From the IMG/VR virus record IMGVR_UViG_3300043119_000970, positions 1 to 44,351 of that record: 44,351 nucleotides of DNA; one strand, given 5' to 3'. Both the position numbers and the translations under genes were made by a program. The DNA is from a virus. This document shows positions 3,077 through 44,351 of this stretch, in pieces; position 1 is the first letter of the stretch, and each line of letters starts with the position of its first letter. The notes under the pieces are model-generated. The model was not told the DNA's origin. It worked only from the letters and a program-made list of their open reading frames with translations, and did no database searches.

Positions 3077-4206
3077 GTGGATCGTACAATGAACATTCCG
3101 ATTTATCAGCATCAGCCTCTCACAGGTGGCTAGCCTGCCCGCCATCAGCGATGCTTGAAAAAGAAGTGCCTAACACAACGAATGAGCATGCAGAAGCAGG
3201 AACTGCAGCACATGACCTCGCTGAGTATAAATTGAAGAAAGCACTGAAGATGAGAACGAAGAAGCCAAACAGTAAATATCAAGACGAGGAGATGGATGAG
3301 TATACTGACCTCTATGTTGAGTACTGTTTAGGGCTTATAGAAAAGGTCAAAGAAACCTGCGCAGATCCTCAGATCTTGATTGAGCAAAAGCTTGACTTTA
3401 GTGACTTTGTACCCGGTGGCTTCGGAACCGGAGACCTAGTGATCGTTGGAAAAGGAACGCTTTATGTTGTGGATTTTAAGTACGGATACGTTGAAGTTTC
3501 AGGAATCAGAAATTCACAAATGATGCTGTATGGCCTTGGAGCACTTACTTTATTTGACATGCTGTATGACATCGATAAAATTTCAATGACCATTTTCCAG
3601 CCCAGAGTCAACAACTTTCCTACGGATGAGATGACTGTTGAAGAACTGCTCTCTTGGGCTGAAGAAGAACTAAAACCCAAAGCCCTCTTAGCAAGCCGAG
3701 GTGAAGGTGAGTTCTGTGCAGGGGACCATTGTGCATATTGCAGAGTAGCAGCAAGGTGTAGGGCTAGAACTTTAAAGAACTTAGAGATGGCAAGATATGA
3801 ATTTCAAAAACCACCTCTTCTTTCAGATGATGAAATTGTAGAAATCATTAGTGCTGCAAATGAAATATCTAAATGGGCCAATGATGTTTATACCTACGCA
3901 ACATCTCGTGCTATCAATGAAGGGAAGCAGTGGGATGGTTTTAAATTAGTAGAAGGTAGAGCTAGAAGAAAGTATACCGATGAAACTGCAGTAGCTGAAG
4001 CTGCTAAAGGAGCCGGCTATACAGACATCTTCAAACAAAGCCTGATTTCCATCACTGAAATGGAAAAGCTTATGGGCAAGAAGAAGTTCAGTGATATCCT
4101 TGGAGATTTGGTAGAAAAACCAAAAGGAAAGCTGAGTCTTGTTCCGGATACGGACAAGCGAAAACCAGTCGATACAGTATTTCAAGATTTTGATGTTATC
4201 GAGTAG
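3073..4206 (+). CDS. DUF2800 Cas4-like PD-(D/E)XK nuclease
   Basis: This 377-residue protein matches the phage DUF2800 family of Cas4/RecB-like nucleases. The start region (LSASASHRWLACPPSAMLEKEVP) and the HAEAGTAAHDLAE segment are typical. The catalytic core is visible as GTGDLVIV...LYVVDFKYG (the D...DxK of PD-(D/E)XK, residues about 115-135). A cysteine cluster FCAGDHCAYCRVAARC around residue 220 resembles the metal or Fe-S site of Cas4/AddB-type nucleases. The start is GTG 3073, overlapping the preceding stop. It is paired with the SSB-like DUF2815 gene, a standard phage recombination/replication pair. Confidence 0.85.
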   Translation: MSGSYNEHSDLSASASHRWLACPPSAMLEKEVPNTTNEHAEAGTAAHDLAEYKLKKALKMRTKKPNSKYQDEEMDEYTDLYVEYCLGLIEKVKETCADPQILIEQKLDFSDFVPGGFGTGDLVIVGKGTLYVVDFKYGYVEVSGIRNSQMMLYGLGALTLFDMLYDIDKISMTIFQPRVNNFPTDEMTVEELLSWAEEELKPKALLASRGEGEFCAGDHCAYCRVAARCRARTLKNLEMARYEFQKPPLLSDDEIVEIISAANEISKWANDVYTYATSRAINEGKQWDGFKLVEGRARRKYTDETAVAEAAKGAGYTDIFKQSLISITEMEKLMGKKKFSDILGDLVEKPKGKLSLVPDTDKRKPVDTVFQDFDVIE

Positions 4207-4239
4207 GAACTAAATAGATGAATTTAAGGAGGAAGAAGA

Positions 4240-4779
4240 ATGAGTTCAGATACAAGAATCAGGATTTACGGGAGATTAAGCTATGCAAATCTTTGGGAGC
4301 CAAAGTCAGCATATGGAAACAAGCCAAAGTACAGTGTATCTATTATTATCCCCAAAAGTGACAAGGCCACAGTTAATAAGGTTTTGAAGGCCGTTGAAAT
4401 AGCGAAGCAAAAGGGGGTCACCAAACTATTTGGAGGAGAAATTCCTAGTAAGTTTCATTTACCACTAAAGGATGGAGATATTGAGAGACCTAACGACCCC
4501 AGTTATAAGGATTCGTATTACATTAATGCAAGTTCGTATAATCCCCCACAAATAGTGGATAGAGGAAAGAACTTAATCCTAGATCGAAGTGAAGTGTATA
4601 GCGGCTGCTATGCAAATGTAACTGTGAATATCTACCCATTTAATAGCGGCGGGAATAGAGGTGTATCTGCTGGGCTTGGTAACGTTCAGAAAGTGGAGGA
4701 TGGAGAACCTTTAGGTGGATTCTTTAGGGCGGAAGACGACTTTGATGTTTTAGATGATGACGATGACTTCTTGGATTAA
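4240..4779 (+). CDS. DUF2815 single-stranded-DNA-binding-like protein
   Basis: This 179-residue protein fits the DUF2815 family, which includes phage OB-fold ssDNA-binding proteins. Residues 1-150 are beta-rich (IRIYGRLSYANLWEPKSAYG, KYSVSIIIPKSDKATVNKV, YINASSYNPPQIVDR). The C-terminus is a strongly acidic tail (EDDFDVLDDDDDFLD), as in SSB proteins, where such tails recruit partner enzymes. The start ATG 4240 follows AAGGAGGAAG. It lies between the Cas4-like nuclease and the DNA polymerase, as expected for a replication SSB. Confidence 0.8.
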   Translation: MSSDTRIRIYGRLSYANLWEPKSAYGNKPKYSVSIIIPKSDKATVNKVLKAVEIAKQKGVTKLFGGEIPSKFHLPLKDGDIERPNDPSYKDSYYINASSYNPPQIVDRGKNLILDRSEVYSGCYANVTVNIYPFNSGGNRGVSAGLGNVQKVEDGEPLGGFFRAEDDFDVLDDDDDFLD

Positions 4780-4812
4780 TCAATCTAGGAACAGAGAGGA
4801 GGTGGTGAACTC

Positions 4813-6078
4813 ATGACAACTTTATCAATCGACATTGAGACATTTTCAGATATCGATTTAGGAAAGTGTGGTGTTTACCGCTACACCGACAGTCCAAACT
4901 TCGACATTCTACTCTTTGCCTACAGCATTGATGAAGGTCCAGTAAAGCTGGTTGATCTTGCTAGTGGTGAAGAGATTCCAACGGAAATTGTGGAAGCAAT
5001 TCTGAGTAGCGATATCATCAAAACGGCTTTTAACGCCAACTTCGAACGAGTTGCTCTTATGCGGTATCTCAGTCGAAAGTTAGGTAAGGATGTGTATCTT
5101 GGTCCATCATCATGGCGGTGTAGTGAGGTTCAGGCAGCAATGCTTGGACTTCCTCTCCACCTTGAGGGTGTTGCCAAAGTGCTAAGGCTAGGTGTTCAGA
5201 AGATGGCCGAAGGAAAACCACTGATCAGATACTTCTGTATTCCCTGTAAGCCAACAGCAGCCAATGGTGGAAGAACCAGAAATCTGCCATCTGATGCACC
5301 GGAAAAATGGGAACTTTTCAAGCAGTACAACATAAGAGACGTCGAAGTGGAACTGGAAATCAGAAAGAAGATTAAAGACTACCCAATACCAGAATCAGAG
5401 CAAGCTCTCTATGAACTGGATCAGCGCATTAACGATCGAGGCTTCAGAGCAGATATGGATTTCGTTATGCAGGCTATCTCCTGCGATAAGCAGTTTACCG
5501 TTGCAGTAACAGAAAGAGCCTATGAACTGACAGGTCTTGAAAATCCAAACTCAGTATCGCAACTAAAAGATTGGTTATCGGACCGAGGCGTGGAAGTCGA
5601 GTGTCTTTCAAAGAAGAACGTAAAAGAGCTGGTCTCAGAAACTAAAGGTGAAGTGGAAGAAGCATTAAAGCTTAGGCTCCTTATGGCCAAGACCAGTGTC
5701 AGAAAATATGAAGCGATAGAAAGAGCGGTATGTTCAGATGGCAGAGTCCACGGACTACTACAATACTATGGTGCCAATCGAACGGGTAGGTGGTGTTTAG
5801 CTGAAGGCACCAAAGTAAAAGTTAAGACGCCAGAAGGAAAAATATTGGATAAAGCAATTCAAGAAGTAGAATTATCTGATTTGGTTTTTGATGGTGAAGA
5901 TTGGGTTACTCATGATGGTGTTGTTTATAGCGGAGATAAAGAAGTCATCGAGTGGGACGGTGTTATAGCTACTCCAGAACATATTGTATTTATCTCTGAT
6001 AATGAAAAAATGAGCCTGGCTGAAGCAAAAGAAAGGAGGATTCAGCTATGGAGAGGCAGTTTAAAGTTTATAAAATAG
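4813..6078 (+). CDS. DNA polymerase I, N-terminal part fused to split-intein N half
   Basis: Of 421 residues, 1-327 are the N-extein: a DEDD 3'-5' exonuclease (SIDIETFSD, FNANFERV, YNIRDVEVEL) and the start of the polymerase domain, ending in YYGANRTGRW. The next 94 residues are an intein N-fragment. It begins with Cys328 (base 5794) in CLAEGTKVKV (block A) and has block B ATPEHIVF around Thr387/His390. The reading frame then closes where the GIY-YIG gene begins (31-base overlap). The rest of the polymerase is encoded 0.84 kb downstream with the intein C half. This is a fractured gene and not a pseudogene, because every splicing block needed is present. Confidence 0.9.
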   Translation: MTTLSIDIETFSDIDLGKCGVYRYTDSPNFDILLFAYSIDEGPVKLVDLASGEEIPTEIVEAILSSDIIKTAFNANFERVALMRYLSRKLGKDVYLGPSSWRCSEVQAAMLGLPLHLEGVAKVLRLGVQKMAEGKPLIRYFCIPCKPTAANGGRTRNLPSDAPEKWELFKQYNIRDVEVELEIRKKIKDYPIPESEQALYELDQRINDRGFRADMDFVMQAISCDKQFTVAVTERAYELTGLENPNSVSQLKDWLSDRGVEVECLSKKNVKELVSETKGEVEEALKLRLLMAKTSVRKYEAIERAVCSDGRVHGLLQYYGANRTGRWCLAEGTKVKVKTPEGKILDKAIQEVELSDLVFDGEDWVTHDGVVYSGDKEVIEWDGVIATPEHIVFISDNEKMSLAEAKERRIQLWRGSLKFIK

Positions 6079-6917
6079 TTTGCACTAATGGGAGATATTA
6101 CATTGGTTATACCGTTCAAAGTTTAAATGAAAGATTGAGGCAGCATACTACGAGAGCTTTAAATGGGGAAGCTAGAAGTCATCCTTTTTATCAAGACATT
6201 AGGGAATATGGAGCAGATGCTTTCCAAATCATAAAACTAGCTGAAACAGCGGATAGACATCAAGCAATGTTTCTAGAAAAGACATATATTTCATCAGAGG
6301 AATGCCCACAACTATATAATTTGTCATCTGGCGGATTAGAAGATGCCAGCTGTGGAGGAAAGATTTTCTGGGGACGGTTAAACGAGAATCCTGAAGAACG
6401 AAAAGAATATATCAAGAAGCTCTCAGAAGTCAAAAAAAGCAGAGACTGGACAGATTACGATAAGTTGCTTCAAAAAAGTCAAGAGTGGAGAAGAGCAAAT
6501 CCTAAAGAGGCTTATAAATTATCCTATAGGGCAATTAGGATTGCTAATAGACATAGAAATGTAGCACCTAAGGAAGATGAAAGAGGCAAGAAAGATATTT
6601 TAATGTGGAAATACAAGAGGAGTGATATGACGAGAAAAAATGCACTTAGGTTATGGCAAAACAGAACTGAAGAAGAAAAAAGAGAAATAGGAAATAAGAT
6701 TTCAATCGCTCAGAAAAAACGCATGAAAGACATCGCCGTTTTGCCAGAATTCCAGCAGACACAATGGCCCTACGCTAAAGCTACTGTACTAAGAAAGATT
6801 AGGCAGGGAATGGGCAGGGAGGAAATTATAAAAGATGCCATTAATAATGTTGAAAACAGAGGATCTCACTGGAGAGAGGTTCGAGAAAAACTTAATAATA
6901 TGGGGGTGTCGGTTTGA
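6048..6917 (+). CDS. GIY-YIG homing endonuclease between intein halves
   Basis: The protein has 289 residues. The N-terminal ~95 residues are a GIY-YIG nuclease: KVYKIVCTNGRYYIGYT, the conserved Arg region LNERLRQHTTRA, the Glu of MFLEKTYIS and the YNLSSGG ending. The rest is basic and helical, suiting DNA recognition. It has its own start (ATG 6048) after AAAGGAGGATTC inside the intein N-half coding end. Its TGA overlaps the TTG start of the next gene. It occupies the place of an intein endonuclease but in a different frame, so it is expressed as a separate protein that presumably spreads the whole cassette. Confidence 0.88.
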   Translation: MERQFKVYKIVCTNGRYYIGYTVQSLNERLRQHTTRALNGEARSHPFYQDIREYGADAFQIIKLAETADRHQAMFLEKTYISSEECPQLYNLSSGGLEDASCGGKIFWGRLNENPEERKEYIKKLSEVKKSRDWTDYDKLLQKSQEWRRANPKEAYKLSYRAIRIANRHRNVAPKEDERGKKDILMWKYKRSDMTRKNALRLWQNRTEEEKREIGNKISIAQKKRMKDIAVLPEFQQTQWPYAKATVLRKIRQGMGREEIIKDAINNVENRGSHWREVREKLNNMGVSV

Positions 6918-7960
6918 GAACCTATGACATCCTAAACGCAGGGCCCAATAATCGATTTATGGCTTCGGGTAGAATCGTTTCAAACTCAGGAAGGCTGGTG
7001 CAGGTCCAAAACCTCCCACAGAACCACCTTGTAGACCTTAAGCTTGCAAGGGATCTAGTAAAAGAAGGTCGTTTTGATGACCTGCAGATGCTCTTTGGTA
7101 ACACACCAGGTGTCCTATCAGAGCTCATTAGAACCGCCTTCATTCCAAAAGAAGGTCACAGGTTTATCGTAGCTGACTTTTCAGCCATAGAAGCGAGGGT
7201 TCTATCCTGGCTTGCTGGTGAAAAATGGAGACTTGAAGTCTTCCAGTCTCATGGAAAGATTTATGAAGCGTCTGCATCACAAATGTTTCATGTACCCATA
7301 GAGGAAATCACAAAGGGCAGTCCCTTAAGACAGAAAGGTAAAATATCGGAACTGGCCTGTGGCTATGGCGGAGGTGTTGGAGCACTGAAATCCATGGGCG
7401 CACTAGAAATGGGAGTAGAGGAACATGAGCTTCAAGGTCTTATCGATAACTGGCGAAGGGCTAATCCCCACATCGTTAACTTCTGGTGGGAAATAGATAA
7501 GATGGCCATCAAAGCAGTGAAGGGGAGAACCAGGACAAGAACCCATGGGATTATCTTCACCTATAAAAGTGGCATGCTTTTTATCACCCTTCCATCGGGA
7601 AGAGATCTTGTTTATGTAAAACCAAAGCTAATGCTTAATAAATTCGGACGAGAAGGATTGACCTATGAAGGAATCGGCACCACGAAAAAGTGGGAGAGGA
7701 TAGAGACTTATGGACCTAAGATTGTTGAAAATATTGTCCAAGCAGCATCAAGAGATTTACTGGCAGAAGCTATGCTAAGGCTTGATAAAGAAGGCTTCAG
7801 CATCGTAGCCCATGTCCATGATGAGGTCATTTGTGAAGTGCCAGTGGGAGAGTCCAGTGTAGAGGAAATTTGTAAAATCATGAGCGTCAATCCTAAATGG
7901 GCAAAAGGACTACCCTTAGATGCAGATGGGTTTGCTTGTGATTTTTACCAAAAAAACTGA
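6914..7960 (+). CDS. Split-intein C half fused to DNA polymerase I C-terminal part
   Basis: This 348-residue protein starts at TTG 6914, overlapping the endonuclease stop, after GGGGGTGT. Residues 1-24 are an intein C-fragment: block F (TYDILNAGPNNRFMASG) and block G ending in Asn24, followed by Ser25 as the +1 nucleophile (base 6986). The penultimate residue is Ser instead of the common His. Residues 25-348 carry polymerase A motifs: DFSAIEARVLSWL (A), a motif-B region KISELACGYGGGVGALKSMG, and HVHDEVICEV (C). Joining the exteins gives GANRTGRW-SGRLVQVQNLPQ, a seamless family A sequence of about 651 residues, the normal size for this phage polymerase type. Confidence 0.9.
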   Translation: MRTYDILNAGPNNRFMASGRIVSNSGRLVQVQNLPQNHLVDLKLARDLVKEGRFDDLQMLFGNTPGVLSELIRTAFIPKEGHRFIVADFSAIEARVLSWLAGEKWRLEVFQSHGKIYEASASQMFHVPIEEITKGSPLRQKGKISELACGYGGGVGALKSMGALEMGVEEHELQGLIDNWRRANPHIVNFWWEIDKMAIKAVKGRTRTRTHGIIFTYKSGMLFITLPSGRDLVYVKPKLMLNKFGREGLTYEGIGTTKKWERIETYGPKIVENIVQAASRDLLAEAMLRLDKEGFSIVAHVHDEVICEVPVGESSVEEICKIMSVNPKWAKGLPLDADGFACDFYQKN

Positions 7961-18708: not shown

Positions 18709-18740
18709 GCAAAAAGCAGGCTTAGCGGCCTGCTTCTTTG
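18709..18740. terminator. Bidirectional terminator between convergent genes
   Basis: AAGCAGGC (18714-18721) pairs with GCCTGCTT (18728-18735). On the minus strand the stem is followed by TTTTT, and on the plus strand by TTCTTT. It ends the regulator gene, overlapping its last codons, and the plus-strand gene pair. Confidence 0.7.
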
Positions 18741-18970
18741 ATATAGGCAATACAATTACTGCAGATGAGTTTTCCTTTAAATTTACGAGTGCCTTTTGCA
18801 TTACCGCAGATTGCACATTGCGGCTCGTATTTACTCAGAATAATTGTCTCCTCGCTGGTGAAAATCTCGAGCGGGACTTTTGGATCCATACCCAGTGTAT
18901 CTCTGAGTTCTTTTGGGATGACGATTCTGCCAAGCTGATCAACTTTCCGAACAATGCCTGTTGATTTCAT
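18722..18970 (-). CDS. AbrB/SpoVT-type regulator with zinc ribbon
   Basis: This is the only minus-strand gene in the window. The protein has 82 residues. Residues 1-48 are an AbrB/SpoVT swapped-hairpin DNA-binding domain (STGIVRKVDQLGRIVIPKELRDTLGM, PLEIFTSEETIIL). Residues 52-75 form a four-cysteine zinc ribbon (CAICGNAKG...LICSNC). The ATG at 18970 has AGGAGG (plus strand 18977-18982) six bases upstream; the GTG at 18976 directly abuts it. An inverted repeat TACCA-N6-TGGTA (about 19015-19030) lies upstream and could be an operator. It is divergent from the 19126 gene and may control the island. Confidence 0.85.
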   Translation of the reverse strand: MKSTGIVRKVDQLGRIVIPKELRDTLGMDPKVPLEIFTSEETIILSKYEPQCAICGNAKGTRKFKGKLICSNCIAYIKEAGR

Positions 18971-19060
18971 TTGCACCTCCTAGGTTGTTACTTCTATGTT
19001 ATATGAAAGAAATTACCAATTCAATGGTAGGGCTTCCATATTCAAAAATAAAAAATATTT

Positions 19061-28376: not shown

Positions 28377-29258
28377 ATGGCAACAATTGGACTCGACAGT
28401 CTATACTACGCCAAGATCACAGAAGATGAAAATGGTATCGAAACCTATGGCACACCAAAAGTCCTGGCAAAAGCCATGACAGCAGAACTGAGTGTGGAGC
28501 TGATTGAAGCAATTCTCTATGCAGATGATGGTGCTTCAGAAGTGGTCAAGGAATTCAAAAGCGGCGCACTGACTCTTGGGATTGATGATATTGGCTCGGT
28601 GGTAGCTCAGGATTTAACAGGATGTAAAATCGATAGCAATAATGTTGTGGTTTCAAGAAGTGAAGATGGAGGAAGTCCAGTAGCCATCGGATTTCGTGCA
28701 AAGAAGGCCAATGGGCGCTATAGATATTTTTGGCTTTACAGAGTAATCTTCAGCGTTCCAGCTACCAGTCTTGCGACCAAAGGTGATTCCATTACATTTA
28801 GCAGTCCCACCATAGAGGGAACGGTCTTTAGACGAAACAAACTGGATGGGGAGAACAAGCACCCATGGAAAGCCGAAGTCACCGAAGGAGATAGCGGAGT
28901 TGCACCATCGACTATTTCCGGGTGGTTTACGTCTGTGTATGAACCGGACTTTACTCCGGTTACACCGGCGATTACCATCACGACTCAGCCTGCAGCCCTC
29001 ACCGAAGTGACAGCCGGTAGCATAACTGGAAGTCTTTCTGTGGTGGCAAGCTCCAATACGTCTAACCCTGTAACGTATCAGTGGTATGAAAACACCATCG
29101 ACAGTTCTACAGGCGGTACACCAATTAATGGAGAGACCTCTGCCAGCTTTGATATCCCAACGGACCTTGTGGCAGATACCTATTACTATTACTGTGTGCT
29201 GAACTTAAGTGGAGCAGATCCTGTGACCACTGAGGTAGCAACAGTAATCGTATCTTAA
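28377..29258 (+). CDS. Major tail protein with C-terminal Ig-like domain
   Basis: This protein has 293 residues. Residues 1-195 resemble the phi13-type major tail tube protein (GLDSLYYAKITED, AKAMTAELSVELIEAILYADD, GALTLGIDDIG, FRAKKANGRYRYFWLYRV). Residues about 200-293 are an immunoglobulin-like domain (TITTQPAALTEVTAGSITGS, VTYQWYENTIDSSTGG, YYYYCVLNLSG), probably displayed on the tube surface and able to bind carbohydrates or cells weakly. The start ATG 28377 follows GAAGGAGG. An in-frame fusion, no frameshift. Confidence 0.9.
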   Translation: MATIGLDSLYYAKITEDENGIETYGTPKVLAKAMTAELSVELIEAILYADDGASEVVKEFKSGALTLGIDDIGSVVAQDLTGCKIDSNNVVVSRSEDGGSPVAIGFRAKKANGRYRYFWLYRVIFSVPATSLATKGDSITFSSPTIEGTVFRRNKLDGENKHPWKAEVTEGDSGVAPSTISGWFTSVYEPDFTPVTPAITITTQPAALTEVTAGSITGSLSVVASSNTSNPVTYQWYENTIDSSTGGTPINGETSASFDIPTDLVADTYYYYCVLNLSGADPVTTEVATVIVS

Positions 29259-33380: not shown

Positions 33381-34454
33381 ATGAGCTATGATCATATTTT
33401 TAATAACACCCTAGCCATCTGGACAGCTTTCGGTGGACGAGGAGAGGTTCTTTTCACCATTCCAACACTGAGTTGGTCAAAGAAATACTATAACAACTTT
33501 GGCTACACCCAGTATGGCAGCGAGAAGCAGATTAACGTTTACGATAATGGCAACGCTCAAATTGCTGTGTACTTTGCAAAGACTCCCTACATGTCCTACT
33601 GGAACAAGACCACCAAGCAGTGGACCGTTGTCAGCGTTCCTTGGTGGAGCTATGGCCAACCGGAGATTCTCTATGCAGCTAATGGTGTGTTTATTGCCAA
33701 GATTGTGGGCCTTGCCAATGTCATCGCATCCTTTGATGGCATCACTTGGCATAATGCTGGGTATTGCCCTGGAGCCTATAACGCCATGACCTGTGGGGCT
33801 TATGACATGGCCAGAGGGTCCGGTATTGTCAGTTGGTGGTACTACAAGTCGCCAGTCTTCTATAGCTTTGACTCTTTAGAGGAAAGAACTGCATGGACCT
33901 TGGTTGGATCTGACGGAACTTCGGTACCGATTTTTAAATACCTGACCACCCATAAGGGAAACTTTGTCGGCGTTGTTGGTGGAGATAAATCCATAGCAAT
34001 AGCCAGTTCAGCCAGTCCTGGTCTTTGGACCACGACCATACCAGAGGATGTGAACGACACCAGGTATATGTTTATTCGGTCTGTGAACGATGTCCTCTTT
34101 GTGATGAAGTTCAACTACACCAATGTGGGCGGCGATTATACCTACTATGTAAAGCTCTGCGTGATGAGTGACGATGCCACGCAGATTACAGAGACGAATC
34201 TTTCCTGGGTGGGGGATCTGGCCAACAACAATATCCCAAATCCAAGGAACATCATCTGGATGGAGGACTGGGGCAAGTTTGCCCTTCTTAAAGAGAGCAT
34301 GCTCTGCGTTTCTAATGATGGTCTTTACTGGGAAGGGGTACATCAACCAGCGTTCACAACAAGCCAGTACGACACCTTTGATGGTGCGATTTATATTCCT
34401 GGTGATGGTTTTTATGCTAAAGCAAGCGGTTATGTTTACTATGCCCCATACTAA
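33381..34454 (+). CDS. Putative receptor-binding/tail-tip propeller-like protein
   Basis: This 357-residue protein is the last structural gene, the usual place for the receptor-binding protein. It has repeated Trp/Tyr-rich beta motifs (GVFIAKIVGLANVIASFDGITWHNAG; KSIAIASSASPGLWTTTIPED; SMLCVSNDGLYWEGV) of the kind seen in beta-propeller or Asp-box-like folds. The N-terminal ~30 residues (HIFNNTLAIWTAFGGRG) probably attach it to the tail. A close, membrane-anchored relative is encoded at 34627. No domain is recognised with certainty; the receptor role is inferred from position and fold. Confidence 0.65.
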   Translation: MSYDHIFNNTLAIWTAFGGRGEVLFTIPTLSWSKKYYNNFGYTQYGSEKQINVYDNGNAQIAVYFAKTPYMSYWNKTTKQWTVVSVPWWSYGQPEILYAANGVFIAKIVGLANVIASFDGITWHNAGYCPGAYNAMTCGAYDMARGSGIVSWWYYKSPVFYSFDSLEERTAWTLVGSDGTSVPIFKYLTTHKGNFVGVVGGDKSIAIASSASPGLWTTTIPEDVNDTRYMFIRSVNDVLFVMKFNYTNVGGDYTYYVKLCVMSDDATQITETNLSWVGDLANNNIPNPRNIIWMEDWGKFALLKESMLCVSNDGLYWEGVHQPAFTTSQYDTFDGAIYIPGDGFYAKASGYVYYAPY

Positions 34455-34516: not shown

Positions 34517-34546
34517 TTGGAAAAATATAGTTATATATTTTATAAT
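34517..34546 (+). promoter_or_regulatory. Promoter of the membrane-anchored tail-protein paralog
   Basis: TTGGAA (34517-34522), an 18-base AT-rich spacer and a perfect TATAAT (34541-34546) form a housekeeping-type promoter about 80 bases before the gene at 34627. It is the best sigma-A-like promoter in the late region and would allow expression in the lysogen. The rest of the 34455-34626 gap is AT-rich and holds no gene. Confidence 0.65.
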
Positions 34547-34626
34547 AGATGTCAGAATATCGTAGGATATTTGAGTTCATAGATGGTGTCTATATGTTAT
34601 CCATTTGAAAGGAGCGGTGAGAAGTA

Positions 34627-35775
34627 GTGATAAAAAGTGGTAAAGGTAAGCTCATCATCAGTTTGATGATTGTCGCTTTTATTGCAATCGTCGCGATGGT
34701 GTTTTTTGACACCACACCAGTTGATGAAGCTAAGGCGATAGAGTATCTTGACGATGATGCAGTAGAAAACCTTGAACTGAACTCACTTAGCTGGGAAAAG
34801 TTAACCCTTGAAGACTTTGGTTACGAGATGCTGGGTGATGAAAAGCAGATCAATGTTTATGATAACGGAAGTGCTCAGATCGCTGTGTATAGAGCAAAAG
34901 CTCCTTACGTTTCATATTTTGATAAAGATAGTGGCGAGTGGACAATGGTGGATTGTTCTTGGTGGGAAAATGGAGAACCAGAGATACTTTACGCGGATGA
35001 TGGAGTTTTCCTGGCCAAGATTACGGGACTCGCTAATATCATCGCTTCTCATGATGGCATCACTTGGTATAACGCGGGCTTCTGTGAAGGAGCCTATAAT
35101 GCCATGGCGACAGCGGCATATGATGCGGAAGAATCAAGTGGCGTCGTTAGTTGGTGGTATGAGAAAACTCCAATCTATCATAGCTTTGATTCATTAGAAG
35201 AGAAAACTAAGTGGACTCTTATCGAACCAACTGAAGAAAAAAAGGTGCCCATCTTTAAATACCTAACAGCGCATAAAGGAAGCTTTGTAGGTGTGGTAGG
35301 CGGCGATAAATCAATAGCTATTGCTAGTTCAATGGCTCCAGATGAGTGGATCACGACAATACCAGAAGACGAGAATGATACAAGATACATGTTCATCCAG
35401 TCAGTAAATGAAAAGCTATTTGTGACAAAGTATAACTATAGAAAAATGGGTGGAGATTATATTTACAATGTGAAACTCTCTGTGATGAGTGACGATGCCA
35501 CACAGATTACGGAGACGAATCTTTCATGGGTCGGTGACCTCGCTAGTAATAACATCTCTAGTCCAAGGAATATCATCTGGATGAATGAGTGGAAGAAATA
35601 CGCTTTGTTCACTGAGAAGATGATGTATTTATCCGATGACGGCATCAGATGGAAGGGAGTAGAACAACCGGATCTATCGGTAAGTCAATACGATACATTT
35701 GATGGGGCCATCTACATTCCGGGCGATGGCTTTTATATAAAGGCTAGTGGGTATATTTACTTCGCACCCTATTAA
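34627..35775 (+). CDS. Membrane-anchored paralog of the tail-tip protein
   Basis: This protein has 382 residues. Residues 1-8 are basic, 9-27 are a transmembrane helix or signal (LIISLMIVAFIAIVAMVFF), and 28-55 an acidic linker. From residue ~57 it is a close copy of the 33381 protein, sharing blocks such as EKQINVYDNG, VGVVGGDKSIAIASS and MSDDATQITETNLSWVGDLA to the very end. Charge rules place the copied domain outside the cell. An AKA sequence (35-37) could also allow signal cleavage. The start GTG 34627 follows AAAGGAGCGG. With its own promoter and terminator it looks like a lysogeny gene; superinfection exclusion by receptor masking is my best guess. Confidence 0.75.
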   Translation: MIKSGKGKLIISLMIVAFIAIVAMVFFDTTPVDEAKAIEYLDDDAVENLELNSLSWEKLTLEDFGYEMLGDEKQINVYDNGSAQIAVYRAKAPYVSYFDKDSGEWTMVDCSWWENGEPEILYADDGVFLAKITGLANIIASHDGITWYNAGFCEGAYNAMATAAYDAEESSGVVSWWYEKTPIYHSFDSLEEKTKWTLIEPTEEKKVPIFKYLTAHKGSFVGVVGGDKSIAIASSMAPDEWITTIPEDENDTRYMFIQSVNEKLFVTKYNYRKMGGDYIYNVKLSVMSDDATQITETNLSWVGDLASNNISSPRNIIWMNEWKKYALFTEKMMYLSDDGIRWKGVEQPDLSVSQYDTFDGAIYIPGDGFYIKASGYIYFAPY

Positions 35776-35805
35776 GGGAATCAATCAAACAGAATAGAGA
35801 CACCA

Positions 35806-35836
35806 GGCGTCCTCAATGTGGGGGCGCTTTTTTATA
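35806..35836 (+). terminator. Intrinsic terminator
   Basis: GCGTCCTC pairs with GGGGGCGC (with G-T pairs), followed by TTTTTT. It closes the single-gene unit of the membrane-anchored paralog. Confidence 0.65.
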
Positions 35837-35866: not shown

Positions 35867-36283
35867 ATGAGAGAAGTTTGGAATTTCATTCAGATGATAT
35901 TTGCGGCGGTTGGTGGATGGCTTGGTTATTTTCTAGGAGGCTACGATGGTTTTTTATATGCCCTGATTGCCTTTGTAGTGGTTGACTATCTAATGGGTGT
36001 TATGTGTGCAGTGCTTGAGAAGCACTTATCTAGCGACGTAGGTGCTCAGGGCATCTTTAAGAAAGTAGTGATTTTCTCTTTGGTAGGAGTGGCACACATC
36101 ATTGATCAGAATATTATCGGAGATGGTAGCGCCATCAGAACAGCAGTGATTTTCTTCTATCTATCCAATGAAGGAATCAGCATCGTTGAAAACGCCACAA
36201 GGCTCGGCCTACCGGTCCCAGAGAAGCTGAGAGACATCCTAGAGCAGCTGAAGGATGGAGGTGACAAGGATGGGACTAAGTAA
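35867..36283 (+). CDS. Holin, TcdE/CutE (toxin secretion/phage lysis) family
   Basis: This 138-residue protein has about three hydrophobic segments (MIFAAVGGWLGYFLGG; FLYALIAFVVVDYLMGVMCAV; a third near VVIFSLVGVAHIID) and the family signature SSDVGAQGIFKK, then IFFYLSNEGISIVENATRLGLPVPEKL. It forms membrane lesions that release the endolysin. The start ATG 35867 follows AAAGTGAGGG. It overlaps the endolysin gene, the standard lysis cassette. Confidence 0.93.
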   Translation: MREVWNFIQMIFAAVGGWLGYFLGGYDGFLYALIAFVVVDYLMGVMCAVLEKHLSSDVGAQGIFKKVVIFSLVGVAHIIDQNIIGDGSAIRTAVIFFYLSNEGISIVENATRLGLPVPEKLRDILEQLKDGGDKDGTK

Positions 36284-37431: not shown

Positions 37432-37518
37432 ATGGTCATTCAAAAGATTTTTATAGAATGGCTTACTAGACGAAAGGAGGAAGAATCGTGGAGAAAACTT
37501 TATCAGCGAGAACACTAG
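37432..37518 (+). CDS. Possible leader peptide overlapping the recombinase start
   Basis: A 28-residue frame (MVIQKIFIEWLTRRKEEESW...) begins at ATG 37432 after AGAGGTG and ends at TAG 37516-37518, 31 bases inside the recombinase gene in another frame. It contains the recombinase ribosome site, so its translation could control recombinase expression. Not certain to be expressed. Confidence 0.35.
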   Translation: MVIQKIFIEWLTRRKEEESWRKLYQREH

Positions 37519-39116
37519 ACATGGACAATGAAACTTTTAGGTACGGAGCGTCAAGAAATCGTTCTAGTGAACTTAGTTTGGGAAACCTAGCGATCGATAG
37601 TGAAAGATTAAGAGTTGCTTCATATTGCAGGGTTAGTACGGAAGAAGAGCTTCAAATGAATTCACTTGATAATCAAATTGTTCACTATACCAACTACATC
37701 CGCTCAAACCCTGAGTGGCAGTTTGCTGGAGTCTTTTCAGACCTTGGCAAATCCGGAACGAAGATGGAAAGTAGGCACGGGTTCAATAAAATGATCCGCT
37801 ACGCCAAAGCTGGTAAGATCGACTTGATCCTCTGCAAATCCATTTCAAGGTTTGCTCGAAATGTCATGGACACGTTAAAAGTAATTAGAGAGCTCCGAGA
37901 GAAAAAGATCTATGTCCTGTTCGAGAAAGAAAATCTCTACACAGGGGACATGCAGAGCGAATTTATACTCACGATGCTCGCGGCAACAGCTCAAGAGGAA
38001 AGCCGAAGTACCTCAGAAAACATCACTTGGGCTACATCAAAGCGCTTTGAGCAAGGCGAAGCCAGGTTTGTTAGAATTCTTGGCTATAAAAAGGTGAAGG
38101 GTAAACGATGGGTGATAGATCCAAAGGAAGCAGCCGCGGTGCGTGAGATTTTTAGACAGTTTCTAGAAGGAAGAACCCCGACTGAAATTGCGAATCACTT
38201 TATCAGAAATGGCTATGTGAAGGCAAACGGGAGAAATGACTGGACCAACGTTGCCATTACATCAATCCTTAGAAATGAACGTTACGTAGGGGATGTTGTT
38301 TGCCAAAAGACATTTACAGAAGACTATCTAACCCATAAAAAGGTAGTGAACAAAGGACAAAAAACGAAATACTACATCAAAGATCATCATGAAGGGATTA
38401 TTGATAGAGATACATTTGAAAGTGTACAAAAGATGCTTAAACCCAAAACGAAGGGGGTTAAGCGCGGGCCTAGTAAACGCTATGATTTTACCGGAAGAAT
38501 TGTCTGCGGTGAATGCGGTGCAAATTACCATAGATACAAGACCAGAGGATATGTGACATGGCGATGTAGCACACGCATGAAAAGTGTTAGACTCTGTAAA
38601 ATGGATGGTATCAAAGATGAGACGATTTATAAGGCTCTAAAGAAAGCCTTTATAGAGAAGTTTGAGATTGATCCAAAGGCACCTGCAAAACGTCAAATCA
38701 TTCAACTTGAGAAGAATCTCTTAAACACAGAAGTTCTGAGAGACGGAGAACAGAACAGGCTGCGCCTAGAACTGGAAAAAGCCCTCTTCGCAGAGAGCAT
38801 GGCAGTTATTGAAAATAAAGATAGTATTGAGCTTGAGAATCAGAGAATAGCTATCGAAAAAAATATATCTGAAAGAGAACCTTGGTGGGCAATGATTGAT
38901 TCAGATGATCCATACAGAAAAGACGCTATAGCTGAGCTTGGTAGAGTTAAAGAGTCAACGAATCCTATCAATGAGTTATACAAAAAACTAGATAGCACAA
39001 AATTTTTAAGGGCATGGATGACACGTGTAATAGCGGAGTCATCTTTTTTATTGAGAATTGTGTGGATTACTGGCGAGGAAACAGAGGTCAGTCTTAAAGA
39101 AGGAGGAGATGCTTAA
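37488..39116 (+). CDS. Large serine recombinase, type A (copy 1)
   Basis: The 542-residue protein has a resolvase domain (about 45-185): SYCRVSTEEELQ with the nucleophilic Ser, LGKSGTKMESR, ICKSISRFARN, and EESRSTSENI. The recombinase domain follows, then a zinc ribbon (CGECGANYHRYKTRGYVTWRC) and a coiled-coil C-terminal arm. All key Arg residues appear intact. The start GTG 37488 follows AAAGGAGGAAG. It ends with LRAWMTRV, like the first half of the fusion at 40995. It shares TAATG with the next gene, so the two are made together and may form a heteromeric integrase. Confidence 0.9.
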   Translation: MEKTLSARTLDMDNETFRYGASRNRSSELSLGNLAIDSERLRVASYCRVSTEEELQMNSLDNQIVHYTNYIRSNPEWQFAGVFSDLGKSGTKMESRHGFNKMIRYAKAGKIDLILCKSISRFARNVMDTLKVIRELREKKIYVLFEKENLYTGDMQSEFILTMLAATAQEESRSTSENITWATSKRFEQGEARFVRILGYKKVKGKRWVIDPKEAAAVREIFRQFLEGRTPTEIANHFIRNGYVKANGRNDWTNVAITSILRNERYVGDVVCQKTFTEDYLTHKKVVNKGQKTKYYIKDHHEGIIDRDTFESVQKMLKPKTKGVKRGPSKRYDFTGRIVCGECGANYHRYKTRGYVTWRCSTRMKSVRLCKMDGIKDETIYKALKKAFIEKFEIDPKAPAKRQIIQLEKNLLNTEVLRDGEQNRLRLELEKALFAESMAVIENKDSIELENQRIAIEKNISEREPWWAMIDSDDPYRKDAIAELGRVKESTNPINELYKKLDSTKFLRAWMTRVIAESSFLLRIVWITGEETEVSLKEGGDA

Positions 39117-40801
39117 TGAATACAGAACAAACACGAAGGCTGCCAGCATCAAGGGTCAGCATCATCCCAGCTCGAACTAGGACCTCGAGGAATGAAGAGA
39201 ACTTTGATGGCCAAAAGAAAAGAATAGGGGTTTATGTACGTGTTTCTACAGACTCAGCCATGCAGGCCACCAGCTACGATATACAGGTATCTTACTTCAA
39301 AGAATATGTAGAGAAGAACCCTAACTGGGAACTCGTAGAGATCTTTGCTGATGAGGGCCTGTCAGGGACTTCAACTAAGAACCGGGTTGAGTTTAATCGG
39401 ATGATCGAGCGCTGCCAGAAGAAAGAAATCGACTACATCATCACCAAATCCATCAGCCGATTTGCGAGGAACACCCTGGACTGTCTACACTACATCAGAA
39501 TGCTGAAGAACCTCGGTATTGGGATTTACTTTCAAAAGGAAAACCTCGATACGTTAGATAGTAAAAGTGAGCTGTTCCTCACTATTCTTTCATCCATGGC
39601 CCAGGAAGAGTCGAGGTCCATTTCAGAAAACACGAAGTGGGGAGTTCAGAAAAGGTTCCAACAGGGCAAAGCCCATGTTCCAACGACCTACTTTCTAGGA
39701 TACACAGAAGACGAGGATGGAAATATTATCATCGATGAGAAGCAGGCTGAAGTGGTTAGGCGAATATACAGGGAGGTACTTGAAGGGAAAGGTACCCCCA
39801 CAATTGCCAAGGAACTGATGAAAGATGGGATTAGGACAGCGAGAAATAAGAAGACCTGGACTTCAGATTCTGTGTACAAAATCCTACGAAACGAAAAATA
39901 CAAAGGTGATTGTCTAGCACAGAAGACCGTGACGGTGGATTTTCTGACCCATGAGCGAGTGAGAAATAAAGAGCATCAGCCGCAGTACTATATTAGAAAT
40001 CACCATCCAGCGATCATCAGTGAGGAAGATTGGGAAAAGGTACAAGAAGAGCTGAATAGACGTAGTAAGATGTTTAGGGATCCAGACAATAAGTACAATA
40101 TGGCCTACAGCGGGGCAGCACCATTTTCAAATAAACTCTTTTGCGGAGAGTGCGGAAGGCCGGTGACTAGAAGGCGGCTCACGACTCACTGCGGAGTGGA
40201 TAGAGCACCTGTGAAGTTCACGGCCTGGCACTGTAGAGTTGCCTCTAAAAGAGATGCAAATTTTAAAGACTGCAAATGTAGTTATGTTTGGGAGGAAGAA
40301 CTAGAGCGGGCCTTCATGAAGCTTCTATTCGACATAAAAAAGGGTAAGGATAAACTGATTGAAGATGTGGAACTGGCCATTGAAGAAGCCTCATTAACAG
40401 AGGAAGAAGACAGAAGGCTAAATGAACTAGGCACTCAAATCGATAGGATCACAGATAAAATTACTGCAATGGCTGCCAGAGCAACAGGATCGAATGAGGT
40501 CATTTACGAGGCGACTATGCGACACTTAATATACGAACAGGAGATTCTCCAAATGGAGTATGATGGACTGAGTGAGAATAAAAAGGAAAGTGAATACCTT
40601 GAAGAGAATCTGAAAATCCTAATTGAAGTCTTAGAGGACATCAAAGGTCCTGAAGAAGACTTTGATCCGGACATCCTAACCAAGGTCATTGAGAAGGGAA
40701 TCGTCTACAATAAATGGCGAGTAGAGTTTCAACTAAAATCCGGCGTTTCATATGAAGTCGACGCTAGGAGAAGACCACAGAGGAGTAAGAAATCAAGATA
40801 G
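39116..40801 (+). CDS. Large serine recombinase, type B (copy 1)
   Basis: The 561-residue protein contains GVYVRVSTDSAMQATSYDIQ (catalytic Ser), EGLSGTSTKNR, ITKSISRFARNTLDCLHY, and QEESRSISENTKWG. The recombinase domain follows (PTIAKELMKDG), then a zinc ribbon (CGECGRPVTRRRL...WHCRVASK) and a coiled coil. Its C-terminus (ILTKVIEKGIVYNKWRVEFQLKSGVS) resembles the end of the fused protein's second half. It starts one base inside the stop of the type A gene (TAATG). Complete and probably active. Confidence 0.9.
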   Translation: MNTEQTRRLPASRVSIIPARTRTSRNEENFDGQKKRIGVYVRVSTDSAMQATSYDIQVSYFKEYVEKNPNWELVEIFADEGLSGTSTKNRVEFNRMIERCQKKEIDYIITKSISRFARNTLDCLHYIRMLKNLGIGIYFQKENLDTLDSKSELFLTILSSMAQEESRSISENTKWGVQKRFQQGKAHVPTTYFLGYTEDEDGNIIIDEKQAEVVRRIYREVLEGKGTPTIAKELMKDGIRTARNKKTWTSDSVYKILRNEKYKGDCLAQKTVTVDFLTHERVRNKEHQPQYYIRNHHPAIISEEDWEKVQEELNRRSKMFRDPDNKYNMAYSGAAPFSNKLFCGECGRPVTRRRLTTHCGVDRAPVKFTAWHCRVASKRDANFKDCKCSYVWEEELERAFMKLLFDIKKGKDKLIEDVELAIEEASLTEEEDRRLNELGTQIDRITDKITAMAARATGSNEVIYEATMRHLIYEQEILQMEYDGLSENKKESEYLEENLKILIEVLEDIKGPEEDFDPDILTKVIEKGIVYNKWRVEFQLKSGVSYEVDARRRPQRSKKSR

Positions 40802-40905
40802 CTTCTTCTGAAACAGAAATTCACAACTCTCGATTTACAAAATCTAAGAAAACCTAATGCCCATGACCTGAGAAACAGATCGAGAAAAAGAACTTCTTTC
40901 ATTCT

Positions 40906-40977
40906 AGAGATAGTACTTGCATTATCTCTGGACTGGAGCCATTAATAACATACCTGGTACTTAACAGGCGGCTCTAG
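40906..40977 (+). promoter_or_regulatory. Inverted repeats before the fused recombinase gene
   Basis: AGAGATA (40906) pairs with TATCTCT (40923). CTGGAGCC (40933) pairs with GGCTCTAG (40970), enclosing the perfect palindrome TACCTGGTA (40951-40959). The region has no gene. It could be an operator, an RNA switch hiding the ribosome site, or a recombination-related site. Confidence 0.35.
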
Positions 40978-40994
40978 TGAAAGGAGTTTTTGTT

Positions 40995-43900
40995 GTGAGA
41001 AAAAAGACGGTTGAAGTGCTATGGCCAAAGGAAAAAGAAGAACCAGAAAAAGAGAGTAATGGAAAGTTAAGAGTTGCTGCCTATTGCAGGCTTAGTAGAC
41101 AGGGCGGTGATAAGCAAATCAACTCTCTCGAGAATCAGTTGAAATATTACACCCATTACATCAGAAGCCATGATGAATATAAGTTGGTGGGTTTATATTA
41201 TGATAAGGAAATATCAGGTGTAACGATAGATGGTCGTCCCGGGTTCAAAAGACTCCTTAGACATTGCGAAGATGGATTGATAGATTTGGTGTTAACGAAG
41301 AGCATCTCTAGGTTTTCTAGAAACGCGAAAGATCTTCTGGAAGTTGTGGACCATTTAAGTGATCTTGGTATACCGATAATTTTTGAGAAAGAAAACATCA
41401 ATAGTATGGAAAGAAAAAACAAGTTCTTTCTAACAGCCTTGGCGGCGGTCAGCCAAGATGAAATTGTGAGTATAGCCCACAATAGTAAGTGGGGAAAAAA
41501 TAAACGAATCCTTTCAGGTAATCCAATCTATAGAAGACAGTTCGGTTATAAAATTGTAAAGACAACACAGGGACAAGTTGCAGTCATACACGAAGAAGAA
41601 GCTGAGGTGATAAAAGAAGTCTTTGAACTCTTTCTTGGGGGCATGAAAATCGGTGAAATTCTAAAACTCTTAACGGATAGAGGTGTGAAGACCGTTAGTG
41701 GGCATACTATTTGGTCGCATACATTGATACTGAATATCTTAGAGAATAGGTCTTATATTGGTGAGAAGATTACAAATCAATATAACAGTTCACTCTCTCA
41801 AAAAGTCGAATTTCTTAAAGATAGTGAGAAGGATATGTACCTCATTGAGAATGCCTATCCTAGAATTATTTCACCTGAGTGTTTTGAAAAAGTACAAGAT
41901 ATGCTCTTGGAGAAGAGGAGAAAAAAAGGACTTGGCAAAACGATACATCACTCTTGTTCGAAGAGGATAAGTTGCGGCCTATGCGATGTGAACTATCACA
42001 AGAACAGAAAAAAGAATCGCGTTGAATGGGTCTGCAGCGTGAAGCAAAAACAAGCGAGATTATGTGATTCTCCACGGTTGACCGATAAAAAGATTCTCAA
42101 ACTGATGAAGGAAGTTATCAGAAAGAGGTATGATTTCAACAATCCTAAAATATTAGAAGTGATGAAGGATGAATTGATTTGGGTGAACAAAAATGATCGG
42201 TTTGAACTTCATCGCCTTAGCTTACTAAGCAAATTACAAATCGCGAAAGAGCATCAAAGACGAGCATCGGAAGATGAATTAGCAATCATTGAAAAAGAAA
42301 AGGTGGAGCGAGCAATAGTGGAGTTCGAGCATCTAGCGACCATGATAGAAGAAGATCGGAAGTATCGTGATCTCGCGATTGAACTATTACGAAAAGCAAA
42401 ATCTCCTGAAGATTTTATAGAGAGAGCTAATGTTGATGTTCTTAGAGCGTGGATTTTGGAAATCAGGATTTTCTCTTTAGAAGATTACCAGGTGCATTGG
42501 TATGATGATCTACATACGACTGTTGGGACTTGTGAGAATAGAAAAGTGGAAATGGAGCTAAAGCGGGAACAATTGATGGGTGAAGATTTGATACTAAAAT
42601 CCCAAAAAAAGGAGCGATATCGCATCTTAGTTGAGGGATGTGAAATCGAAGGCGTGGAAGAAATAGATCCACCATTTCCTAAAGTAAGAGGTGAGAACAT
42701 GCAAGCTGTTAGAGTTGAAAAATACTTTTCAGAGAATATTATCGATCGTATACGAAGAGAAATTAGGGAAAGTAAACAAAATAGCCTGCCTGCCAGGAAA
42801 AAGGTTAGAATCGCTGTATATGCAAGAGTTAGTACTGATGATCCAGTGCAATTAGGATCGTTGGAGGCTCAGATGGCCTACTATACTTATGCTGTGTTAA
42901 AGAATCCTGAGTATCGACTGATTAAGGTTTATTATGACGAGGGGGTATCAGGAAAGAAGGCGGAGAATCGAGATGGTTTTCAAGAGTTGATTTCAGATTG
43001 CAGAAAAGGAAAAATTGATCGCGTCATCACCAAGTCTATATCGAGATTTGCTAGGAACACTGTAGATTGCTTGGAATATGTGAGAGAGTTAGAGACTCTA
43101 GGTGTTTCAATAATGTTTGAGAAAGAAGAGATAGATACCGCTGAAAAAGATGGTGAAATCTTACTGACTGTATACAGCGCGCTCGCACAAGAAGAGTCTA
43201 GGAGTCTTGGTGAAAGCCTTACATGGGGACGAAGTAAACTAGCAGAAAGAGGATCTGTTAAACTCAGCACACTGCCTTATGGATTCTATTACGGTAAAAA
43301 TGGGAGCTGGGAAATTGACAGCGAGAAGGCTACTGTGGTCAAAAGAATCTTTGATGAATATCAATTAGGGAAAAGCATGCAAGGTATTGCAAACGGTCTA
43401 ACGGGAGATAAAATTCCAAGTCCTAAGAATAAGAGTACTTGGGGGTTCACTACAGTTCGTAGAATGTTAAATAATCCAGCATACATCGGAGATGTGCTTT
43501 ATCAAAGAAAGTACACAAGCGACTCCATTACCGGAAAGAGAGTCCCGAACAATGGTGAACTGCCAATGTACTATATTGAAGAAAATCACGAAGCTATTAT
43601 CGATAAAGAAAAGTGGGATGCGGTGCAGAGAATCATCAATAGTAAGACAAGGAAAATCACGAAAGCAAAACGACACACTAGAGACGAGTTCTTTAAGACT
43701 TTCCAATGTGGATCTTGCGGCTGTCCAATTATACATCTTTCAAGCCATAATGGGTTGGAGAGGCATTACTGGCGGTGTAGAGCTTCAGCTGTTAAGAACC
43801 ACACCGAGGAGTGTTTTGAAAAAGCTATCAGGGAAGAAAACATCGAGCATACTTTTATGGTAATGCTCCAGGAAATGAAAAACTCGAAGAAGTTATCGGA

Positions 43901-44351
43901 ATTGGTAAATGAAGTTATCGAAGAGGTTAGCCTGAAACCTCATGAGGAGGAAGAACTTGAGCGTTTAGAAACAGAAATCGAAATCTACTACCAGAAACTA
44001 TACGAGACTGTTGAAGAGGGAAAAAAACATGGCGAGGATACCGGTGCGATCAAAGTGATTACAGACCACATCATGGATCTTCACGGTAAGATTCGAAGCT
44101 ATGAAGATAGAAAGGAGAGAGTGATTGCGCTTAGTGAAGAGTTAAAGTGGTTGAGGAAAGAGCTCCTAGCTTTGGAGGCCTTCAATCCGAAGAAGGAGAG
44201 GATACCCTTTAGAGGCGATATTTTCACGAGGTTAATCAAGTCAGGAACCTTCCTAGCTGATGACGTTATTGAGTATCAACTAAGTATTGGCGTGAGCTGG
44301 AATGCAAGAGATAATCGCAGGGAATATTGGAAGCTCCCGATAAAAAAGTAA
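40995..44351 (+). CDS. Tandem fusion of two large serine recombinases (types A and B)
   Basis: The 1118-residue protein contains two whole recombinases. First unit (about 1-565): AYCRLSRQGGDKQ with the catalytic Ser, TKSISRFSRNAKDL, QDEIVSIAHNSKWG (lacking the usual EESR), and a zinc ribbon (CGLCDVNYHKNRKKNRVEWVC). Second unit (569-1118): VYARVSTDDPVQLGSLEAQ, TKSISRFARNTVDCLEY, AQEESRSLGES and a zinc ribbon (CGSCGCPIIHL...HYWRC). The order matches the separate A and B genes upstream. The start GTG 40995 follows AAAGGAG; the frame begins at GTG 40977. The stop codon is the last base triplet of the window. Confidence 0.88.
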   Translation: MRKKTVEVLWPKEKEEPEKESNGKLRVAAYCRLSRQGGDKQINSLENQLKYYTHYIRSHDEYKLVGLYYDKEISGVTIDGRPGFKRLLRHCEDGLIDLVLTKSISRFSRNAKDLLEVVDHLSDLGIPIIFEKENINSMERKNKFFLTALAAVSQDEIVSIAHNSKWGKNKRILSGNPIYRRQFGYKIVKTTQGQVAVIHEEEAEVIKEVFELFLGGMKIGEILKLLTDRGVKTVSGHTIWSHTLILNILENRSYIGEKITNQYNSSLSQKVEFLKDSEKDMYLIENAYPRIISPECFEKVQDMLLEKRRKKGLGKTIHHSCSKRISCGLCDVNYHKNRKKNRVEWVCSVKQKQARLCDSPRLTDKKILKLMKEVIRKRYDFNNPKILEVMKDELIWVNKNDRFELHRLSLLSKLQIAKEHQRRASEDELAIIEKEKVERAIVEFEHLATMIEEDRKYRDLAIELLRKAKSPEDFIERANVDVLRAWILEIRIFSLEDYQVHWYDDLHTTVGTCENRKVEMELKREQLMGEDLILKSQKKERYRILVEGCEIEGVEEIDPPFPKVRGENMQAVRVEKYFSENIIDRIRREIRESKQNSLPARKKVRIAVYARVSTDDPVQLGSLEAQMAYYTYAVLKNPEYRLIKVYYDEGVSGKKAENRDGFQELISDCRKGKIDRVITKSISRFARNTVDCLEYVRELETLGVSIMFEKEEIDTAEKDGEILLTVYSALAQEESRSLGESLTWGRSKLAERGSVKLSTLPYGFYYGKNGSWEIDSEKATVVKRIFDEYQLGKSMQGIANGLTGDKIPSPKNKSTWGFTTVRRMLNNPAYIGDVLYQRKYTSDSITGKRVPNNGELPMYYIEENHEAIIDKEKWDAVQRIINSKTRKITKAKRHTRDEFFKTFQCGSCGCPIIHLSSHNGLERHYWRCRASAVKNHTEECFEKAIREENIEHTFMVMLQEMKNSKKLSELVNEVIEEVSLKPHEEEELERLETEIEIYYQKLYETVEEGKKHGEDTGAIKVITDHIMDLHGKIRSYEDRKERVIALSEELKWLRKELLALEAFNPKKERIPFRGDIFTRLIKSGTFLADDVIEYQLSIGVSWNARDNRREYWKLPIKK
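42684..42701 (+). promoter_or_regulatory. Internal ribosome site and ATG inside the fusion
   Basis: AGAGGTGAG lies four to six bases before the in-frame ATG 42699, which would give a 550-residue type B recombinase alone, the same length as the free-standing copy. The fusion gene may therefore yield two products. Confidence 0.45.

Follow-up and report, generated by a model that had tools for sequence, protein, structure and literature searches.

Gene content of the tail and lysis gene junction

The analyzed DNA (the window, 44,351 nucleotides of IMG/VR record IMGVR_UViG_3300043119_000970) carries two related genes on the plus strand between a Tal-like gene and a holin gene. The first encodes a distal tail protein of 357 residues (33381–34454), which combines a conserved N-terminal peptide with a predicted seven-bladed Asp-box beta-propeller. 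The second, found in the ORF list and by BLASTP, encodes a paralogous copy of the tail propeller with a predicted export segment (34627–35775, 382 residues, GTG start). The Tal-like gene upstream contains Prophage_tail and Prophage_tailD1 domains, and the tape measure and major tail protein genes lie farther up (the latter at 28377–29258, with a weak match to an Ig-like domain at its C-terminal end). Downstream of the copy follow the holin gene (35867–36283, plus strand; PF05105, E 2.5e-45), an amidase gene and large serine recombinase genes, the last of which suit a temperate siphovirus.

Apart from the copy, nothing but the tail gene lies between the Tal-like and holin genes, and in 56 of 58 relatives that lack the copy the holin starts 72–100 nt past the tail stop codon. 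The tail protein comes next after Tal in all 59 Tal-anchored loci with enough sequence. In loci with a more distant holin, different large tail proteins fill this position, which is what a module for the distal tail or for host recognition would be expected to show.

Several related loci show further exchanges in the same region. In L227, L237, L239, L240, L243 and L254 the holin is 84–91% identical, but the distal protein is unrelated and reaches up to 451 residues (MELVFSTTGIIGQGKYPDFLQF...), indicating that the whole distal tail module has been exchanged against the lysis module. L028 carries a group II intron with a maturase ORF (3257–5220; RVT_1, GIIM) between its tail and holin genes, the junction that holds the copy in the window, and the tail homologue of L074 (1980–3055) lies in several broken frames, with a longer gap before the holin. 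Between holin and amidase, L015 encodes an AAA ATPase/RloB pair (3120–5052; AbiLi, E 9.5e-80; AbiLii, E 1.8e-11), so phage-defence cargo is taken up in this part of the genome. Insertions of equal size occur at the same place in L021, L027 and L030.

N-terminal replacement in the copy

The copy and the tail protein share 226 of 334 aligned residues (68%, BLASTP E 1e-175). The alignment runs from tail residue 25 and copy residue 49 to identical C-terminal ends, and the longest identical block spans 21 residues. In place of tail sequence, the first ~50 residues of the copy comprise a basic stretch (MIKSGKGK, net +3; 34627–34650), a hydrophobic helix at residues 9–27 (34651–34707), which may be a transmembrane anchor or the core of a signal peptide, and an acidic linker at residues 28–54 (net -8; 34708–34788). 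The 19-residue hydrophobic segment, LIISLMIVAFIAIVAMVFF, has a Kyte-Doolittle value of 3.13 and overlaps a helix at residues 6–26 of the structure model. The propeller domain, as delimited in that model, makes up residues 55–382 (34789–35772). These data support the description of the copy as an N-terminally re-engineered paralogue of the tail protein with a predicted export segment. They also bear out the sequence-only reading, which had described a repeat of nearly all of the tail protein with its N-terminus swapped for a basic stretch, a transmembrane helix and an acidic linker.

Under the positive-inside rule, the charges of +3 and -8 on either side of the helix predict an N-in/C-out topology, which would place the propeller outside the cell. 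A possible signal-peptidase site, AKA (residues 35–37), is present in every copy. Since it lies ten residues past the hydrophobic core, the sequence fits both anchoring and secretion, and the copy may either stay in the membrane or be released by cleavage at this site. Residues 1–56 of the copy contain no cysteine and thus no lipobox cysteine.

Residues 1–24 of the tail protein (33381–33452) are without counterpart in the copy. They carry the motif FNNTLAIWTAFGGRG, of which each of the 15 positions is 93–100% conserved among 88 tail homologues and which is absent from all copies. In the monomer model this segment is unstructured (pLDDT under 50), and a pattern search found the peptide on no other protein of the compared loci. 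A sequence that is nearly invariant yet unstructured on its own fits a docking peptide, and it is probably the part that attaches the protein to the tail. As the copy lacks it, we do not class the copy as a tail component.

The tail protein itself is unusually conserved. Its median dN of 0.033 is the lowest of seven tail and lysis genes (0.064–0.096 for the others), a comparison open to ascertainment bias because the loci were chosen by similarity to this protein. Such low divergence is atypical of a diversifying receptor-binding protein; a conserved ligand would reconcile the two. We infer host-surface recognition as a candidate role for the tail protein, which its position and predicted fold fit.

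Predicted fold and surface of the two propellers

Neither the copy nor the tail protein matched a Pfam, PHROG or NCBIfam family above the cut-off, and the copy had no sequence match in the PDB. Modeled from 64 sequences (pLDDT 85.8), the copy is predicted to consist of the N-terminal helix and a propeller with seven blades, as counted from the strand list, whose ring is closed by an N-terminal strand. The tail protein, with its propeller at 33453–34451, is modeled with the same fold (pLDDT 83.9). Through structural alignments, the best solved matches of the copy are GH74 xyloglucanases (Z 19.0, 3.3 Å over 285 residues), and the best Z of the tail protein is 20.2. Both are predicted to be seven-bladed, Asp-box, GH74-like beta-propellers. 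The likeness to the xyloglucanases, with Z of ~19–20, concerns the fold; identity is ~8–11%, the enzymes have two propellers, and fold alone does not show function.

Conservation between copy and tail protein differs by structural element. Inner strands are 85% and B-C loops 80% identical, in contrast to 61% for the top D-A loops, where the copy has lost aromatic residues. Ligand binding may thus have changed. The surface has also become much more charged: relative to the tail protein, 34 charged residues are new in the copy and 5 have disappeared, mostly in loops. The copies contain 88–90 charged residues over the whole chain, compared with 43–55 in the propellers alone of the 88 tail homologues; for the propeller alone, the copy in the window has 77 (net -23) and its tail protein 48 (net -6). 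Such a gain is expected of a free-standing extracellular domain that is no longer packed in a tail, and it may also accompany a shift in ligand binding.

Distribution, selection and origin

Copies occur in seven other viral contigs (L003–L009), representing at least three further backgrounds, and every complete copy is a full-length ORF. In the comparison of the window with L032/L006, the most distant, the copy gave Nd 24 and Sd 43, corresponding to a dN/dS of ~0.13 (p 3e-14 versus neutrality); the tail gene is held more tightly in the same comparison (0.019/0.784). The phages that carry the copy are mosaic. Across the stretch that extends from the intergenic gap to the amidase, both included, L007 matches the window exactly, whereas identity falls to 88% in its tape measure and 91% in its recombinase. 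L006 is 96.5% identical in the gap and 94.2% in the copy, compared with 82–90% in other segments. Conservation of the copy and of the region upstream of it thus exceeds that of their flanks, and the two behave as a constrained cassette. Taken together, these comparisons support purifying selection on the copy and its retention in several phage backgrounds.

Searches of phage and plasmid collections found no match to the copy. Across ~685 further whole genomes from three orders no copy was present, and full-length tail homologues were confined to the three genomes around which the search was centred. Youngiibacter, Anaerotalea and Sutcliffiella are among the hosts of relatives. Among ~290 loci, tandem pairs of exported and non-exported paralogues were found in this lineage alone.

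The sequence past the copy's stop codon matches that past the tail stop codon in the copy-less L027, including the hairpin terminator, so the end of the copy resembles that of a tail gene together with the 3' flank. Recent duplication of the phage's own tail gene was considered and rejected. Synonymous sites between copy and tail gene are saturated, the copy forms a deep branch in the protein tree made with FastTree, and the two genes differ in GC content (41.7% in the copy, 46.7% in the tail gene), all of which argue against a recent duplicate. The tree places the copy next to L140 and not beside the co-resident tail protein, a placement to which long-branch attraction may contribute. As regards concerted change of copy and tail protein in one phage, 3 of 12 tail-variable positions vary among copies as well, a number too small to build an argument on.

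Putative expression signals

A promoter-like site (TTGGAA-18-TATAAT, plus strand, 34517–34546) matches the consensus at 10 of 12 positions and is invariant in all six copy-bearing records aligned. Downstream of it, a ribosome-binding-site-like AAAGGAG, read from the sequence, lies on the plus strand 12 nt before the GTG start (34608–34614). When the 172-nt gap upstream of the copy was shuffled 2,000 times, 7.9% of shuffles reached 10/12 and 4.5% did so with a perfect -10, and the site is therefore only moderately better than chance. The gap as a whole is strongly conserved: it differs from L006 by 5 substitutions, where ~32 are predicted from synonymous divergence (18.5% in the gene; p 4e-10). 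The 88 aligned bases downstream of the copy contain 15 substitutions relative to the same locus. RNA structure in the leader was rejected (z-score 0.02).

A terminator-like hairpin follows the copy on the plus strand (35805–35829). A matching hairpin lies between the tail and holin genes of relatives without the copy, which makes the terminator ancestral to that junction and not the copy's own. No terminator-like site was found between the tail gene and the copy, so transcription late in the cycle is expected to read through from the tail operon, and the copy is probably co-transcribed with the tail genes at that stage as well. For expression in the lysogen, one promoter-like site is weak evidence. 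The earlier interpretation is supported in part, namely as far as it concerns a re-engineered copy with a predicted export segment, to which selection in several phage backgrounds can be added. The "good promoter" on which it drew is present as a motif in a conserved region but is matched by 4.5–7.9% of shuffles, and the terminator that it assigned to the copy is the older one of the tail and holin junction.

Possible functions of the copy

We consider a surface-displayed or secreted decoy of the distal tail propeller, interfering with phage adsorption, to be the best explanation of the copy, held tentatively and at somewhat less than an even chance. The copy would be exported through the membrane with its N-terminus inside and its C-terminus outside, and its propeller would either stay anchored or be cleaved and released. 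Outside the cell, the propeller would occupy the ligand that this phage and related ones use through their tail propellers, and later phages with the same tail protein would adsorb poorly. If expressed late, it could also keep progeny from being lost on the debris of lysed cells.

The features of the sequence behind this proposal are the homology, the loss of the peptide, the gain of an export segment, the predicted fold, purifying selection and the behavior as a cassette in mosaic phages. In particular, the putative docking peptide has been replaced by an export segment in a protein that shares its predicted fold with the tail protein and has kept most of its inner strands and B-C loops. The tail gene lies between the Tal-like gene and the holin, at a position that is exchanged among loci, and a beta-propeller has been described as the likely glycan-binding platform of another phage's receptor-binding protein. 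More specifically, the propellers of phi11 Gp45 are proposed to hold wall teichoic acid GlcNAc (PMC4901313). Gp45 is a precedent for a beta-propeller in a siphophage receptor-binding protein, but its propellers have five blades and belong to a trimer that also comprises a stem and a tower, and it is a virion protein and not membrane-anchored. The constraint on the copy, the conservation of copy and upstream region above that of their flanks, the gain of surface charge and the AbiLi/AbiLii-like defence cargo in the neighboring region of relatives also speak for a decoy. The proposal further supposes binding of a host ligand by the tail protein, retention of this binding in the copy, production of the copy at a suitable time and a resulting loss of adsorption.

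Other observations weigh against a decoy. The conservation of the tail protein is atypical for a receptor-binding protein, the D-A loops of the copy may bind a different ligand, and a copy that branches deep in the tree need not match the ligand of the present tail protein. Furthermore, an anchored copy with a ~27-residue linker would lie beneath a thick Gram-positive wall and could not reach through it, a difficulty for the masking of an outer-wall receptor. Cleavage after AKA would release the propeller.

The short linker would hold an anchored domain at the membrane, where a block after adsorption could be pictured instead: between membrane and wall, the propeller would engage the incoming tail tip or a membrane-side receptor and stop DNA entry. 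The best-known exclusion proteins of Gram-positive hosts are membrane proteins that stop injection after adsorption (PMC10883804), and tail propellers might contact one another or a tail partner. Ltp of TP-J34 and Sie2009 of Tuc2009, for instance, block DNA injection, and escape from Ltp maps to the tape measure protein (PMC10883804). Both come from siphophages of Gram-positive hosts and act in superinfection exclusion as exported or membrane proteins; in contrast to the proposed decoy they act after adsorption, and they are not paralogues of a tail tip protein. However, the conserved, putative tail-docking peptide is exactly the part that the copy lacks, and a tail-binding partner is not known. 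We regard this explanation as unlikely.

We also give a low probability to lysogenic conversion unrelated to exclusion, in which an exported glycan-binding or glycan-processing propeller would alter the host surface, for example in adhesion or polysaccharide handling. It would suit the GH74 enzymes as best fold matches, a surface chemistry that has diverged strongly from that of the tail protein, and the deep branch in the tree. It fits less well with an identity of 68% to the tail protein and a location that always adjoins the tail gene, and no catalytic residues were identified.

The position on the same strand inside the late operon, directly 5' of the holin, with a terminator after the copy and none between it and the tail gene, leads to a third alternative. 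If read-through led to its production along with the tail and lysis proteins, and without expression in the lysogen, the copy could tether or sequester tail parts at the membrane, protect progeny from debris or aid lysis. The conserved promoter-like upstream region and the fact that most relatives do without the copy make such a late-stage role quite improbable. Finally, a non-functional or decaying tandem duplicate, to which the tandem position and the copy-specific divergence might point, is highly improbable given full-length ORFs, the low dN/dS, the conserved upstream region and the retention of the cassette in mosaic phages.

Comparison of the proposed decoy with known systems

Receptor-blocking superinfection exclusion is known in phages. 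The lipoprotein Llp of T5 blocks FhuA allosterically from the periplasmic side and is thought to limit adsorption to fragments of lysed cells (PMC9586334), and Cor of phi80 and N15 disables the phage receptor, as cited in PMC10883804. Both are small phage-encoded exported proteins that disable the receptor of the phage's own receptor-binding protein, as is proposed here. Their exported or membrane-associated nature is found in the present protein by prediction only (hydrophobic segment, charge asymmetry and model helix). Llp, however, does not copy pb5, the tail protein of its phage, whereas the present protein is a paralogue of a tail protein and lacks a lipobox cysteine. The receptor blockers of phages described in the literature covered here are small, dedicated proteins that have no relation to the adhesin of the phage encoding them.

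Nearest in design is the receptor interference by Env-derived proteins in vertebrates, namely Fv-4, Rmcf, Refrex-1, Suppressyn and FeLIX (PMC11019853). There, the cell anchors or secretes a viral receptor-binding protein, whose competition for the receptor keeps out related viruses. These proteins are retroviral and host-domesticated, and their relation to the copy is one of analogy and not homology. Tai systems, which are prophage-encoded and inhibit tail assembly (PMC11364771), share with the copy an interference of prophages with other phages via their tails; they act inside the cell, whereas the copy has an export segment.

PADLOC defence models gave no family for the copy at E ≤ 0.001. 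Literature searches covering open-access full texts found no exclusion protein that a phage had derived from its own receptor-binding protein, in agreement with the earlier remark that no exclusion system built in this way has been described. It is possible, if rather doubtful, that no earlier phage system is of this design, with an adhesin of the virion duplicated and re-engineered into a decoy that is displayed on the cell or secreted and excludes phages by occupying their receptor, comparable to Env-derived interference. If the decoy proposal holds, exclusion could be reached by a simple and repeatable route, the exchange of a docking peptide for an export segment, and the decoy would predict its own target range, namely phages with the same tail protein. 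It would also parallel the use of retroviral Env by vertebrates and offer a handle on the receptor that a widespread prophage family of Firmicutes uses.

Additional observations in the window and on a related contig

The 92-kb contig IMGVR_UViG_3300017919_000016 contains two tail and lysis regions (L005 and L027), ~30 kb apart and in the same orientation. One has an exported copy and the other the AbiL-sized insertion, and the contig represents either tandem prophages or an assembly chimera.

In the window, three consecutive large serine recombinase ORFs occupy 37488–44351. The last encodes 1124 residues with two resolvase and two recombinase domains, and its end coincides with that of the window. 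A small AbrB/MazE-like DNA-binding gene (18722–18976, PF04014) lies on the minus strand, opposite to the other genes examined, and may encode a regulator. A DNA-polymerase-like gene (4813–7960) is apparently split by a GIY-YIG ORF (6048–6917), which suggests an intein or intron with a homing endonuclease.
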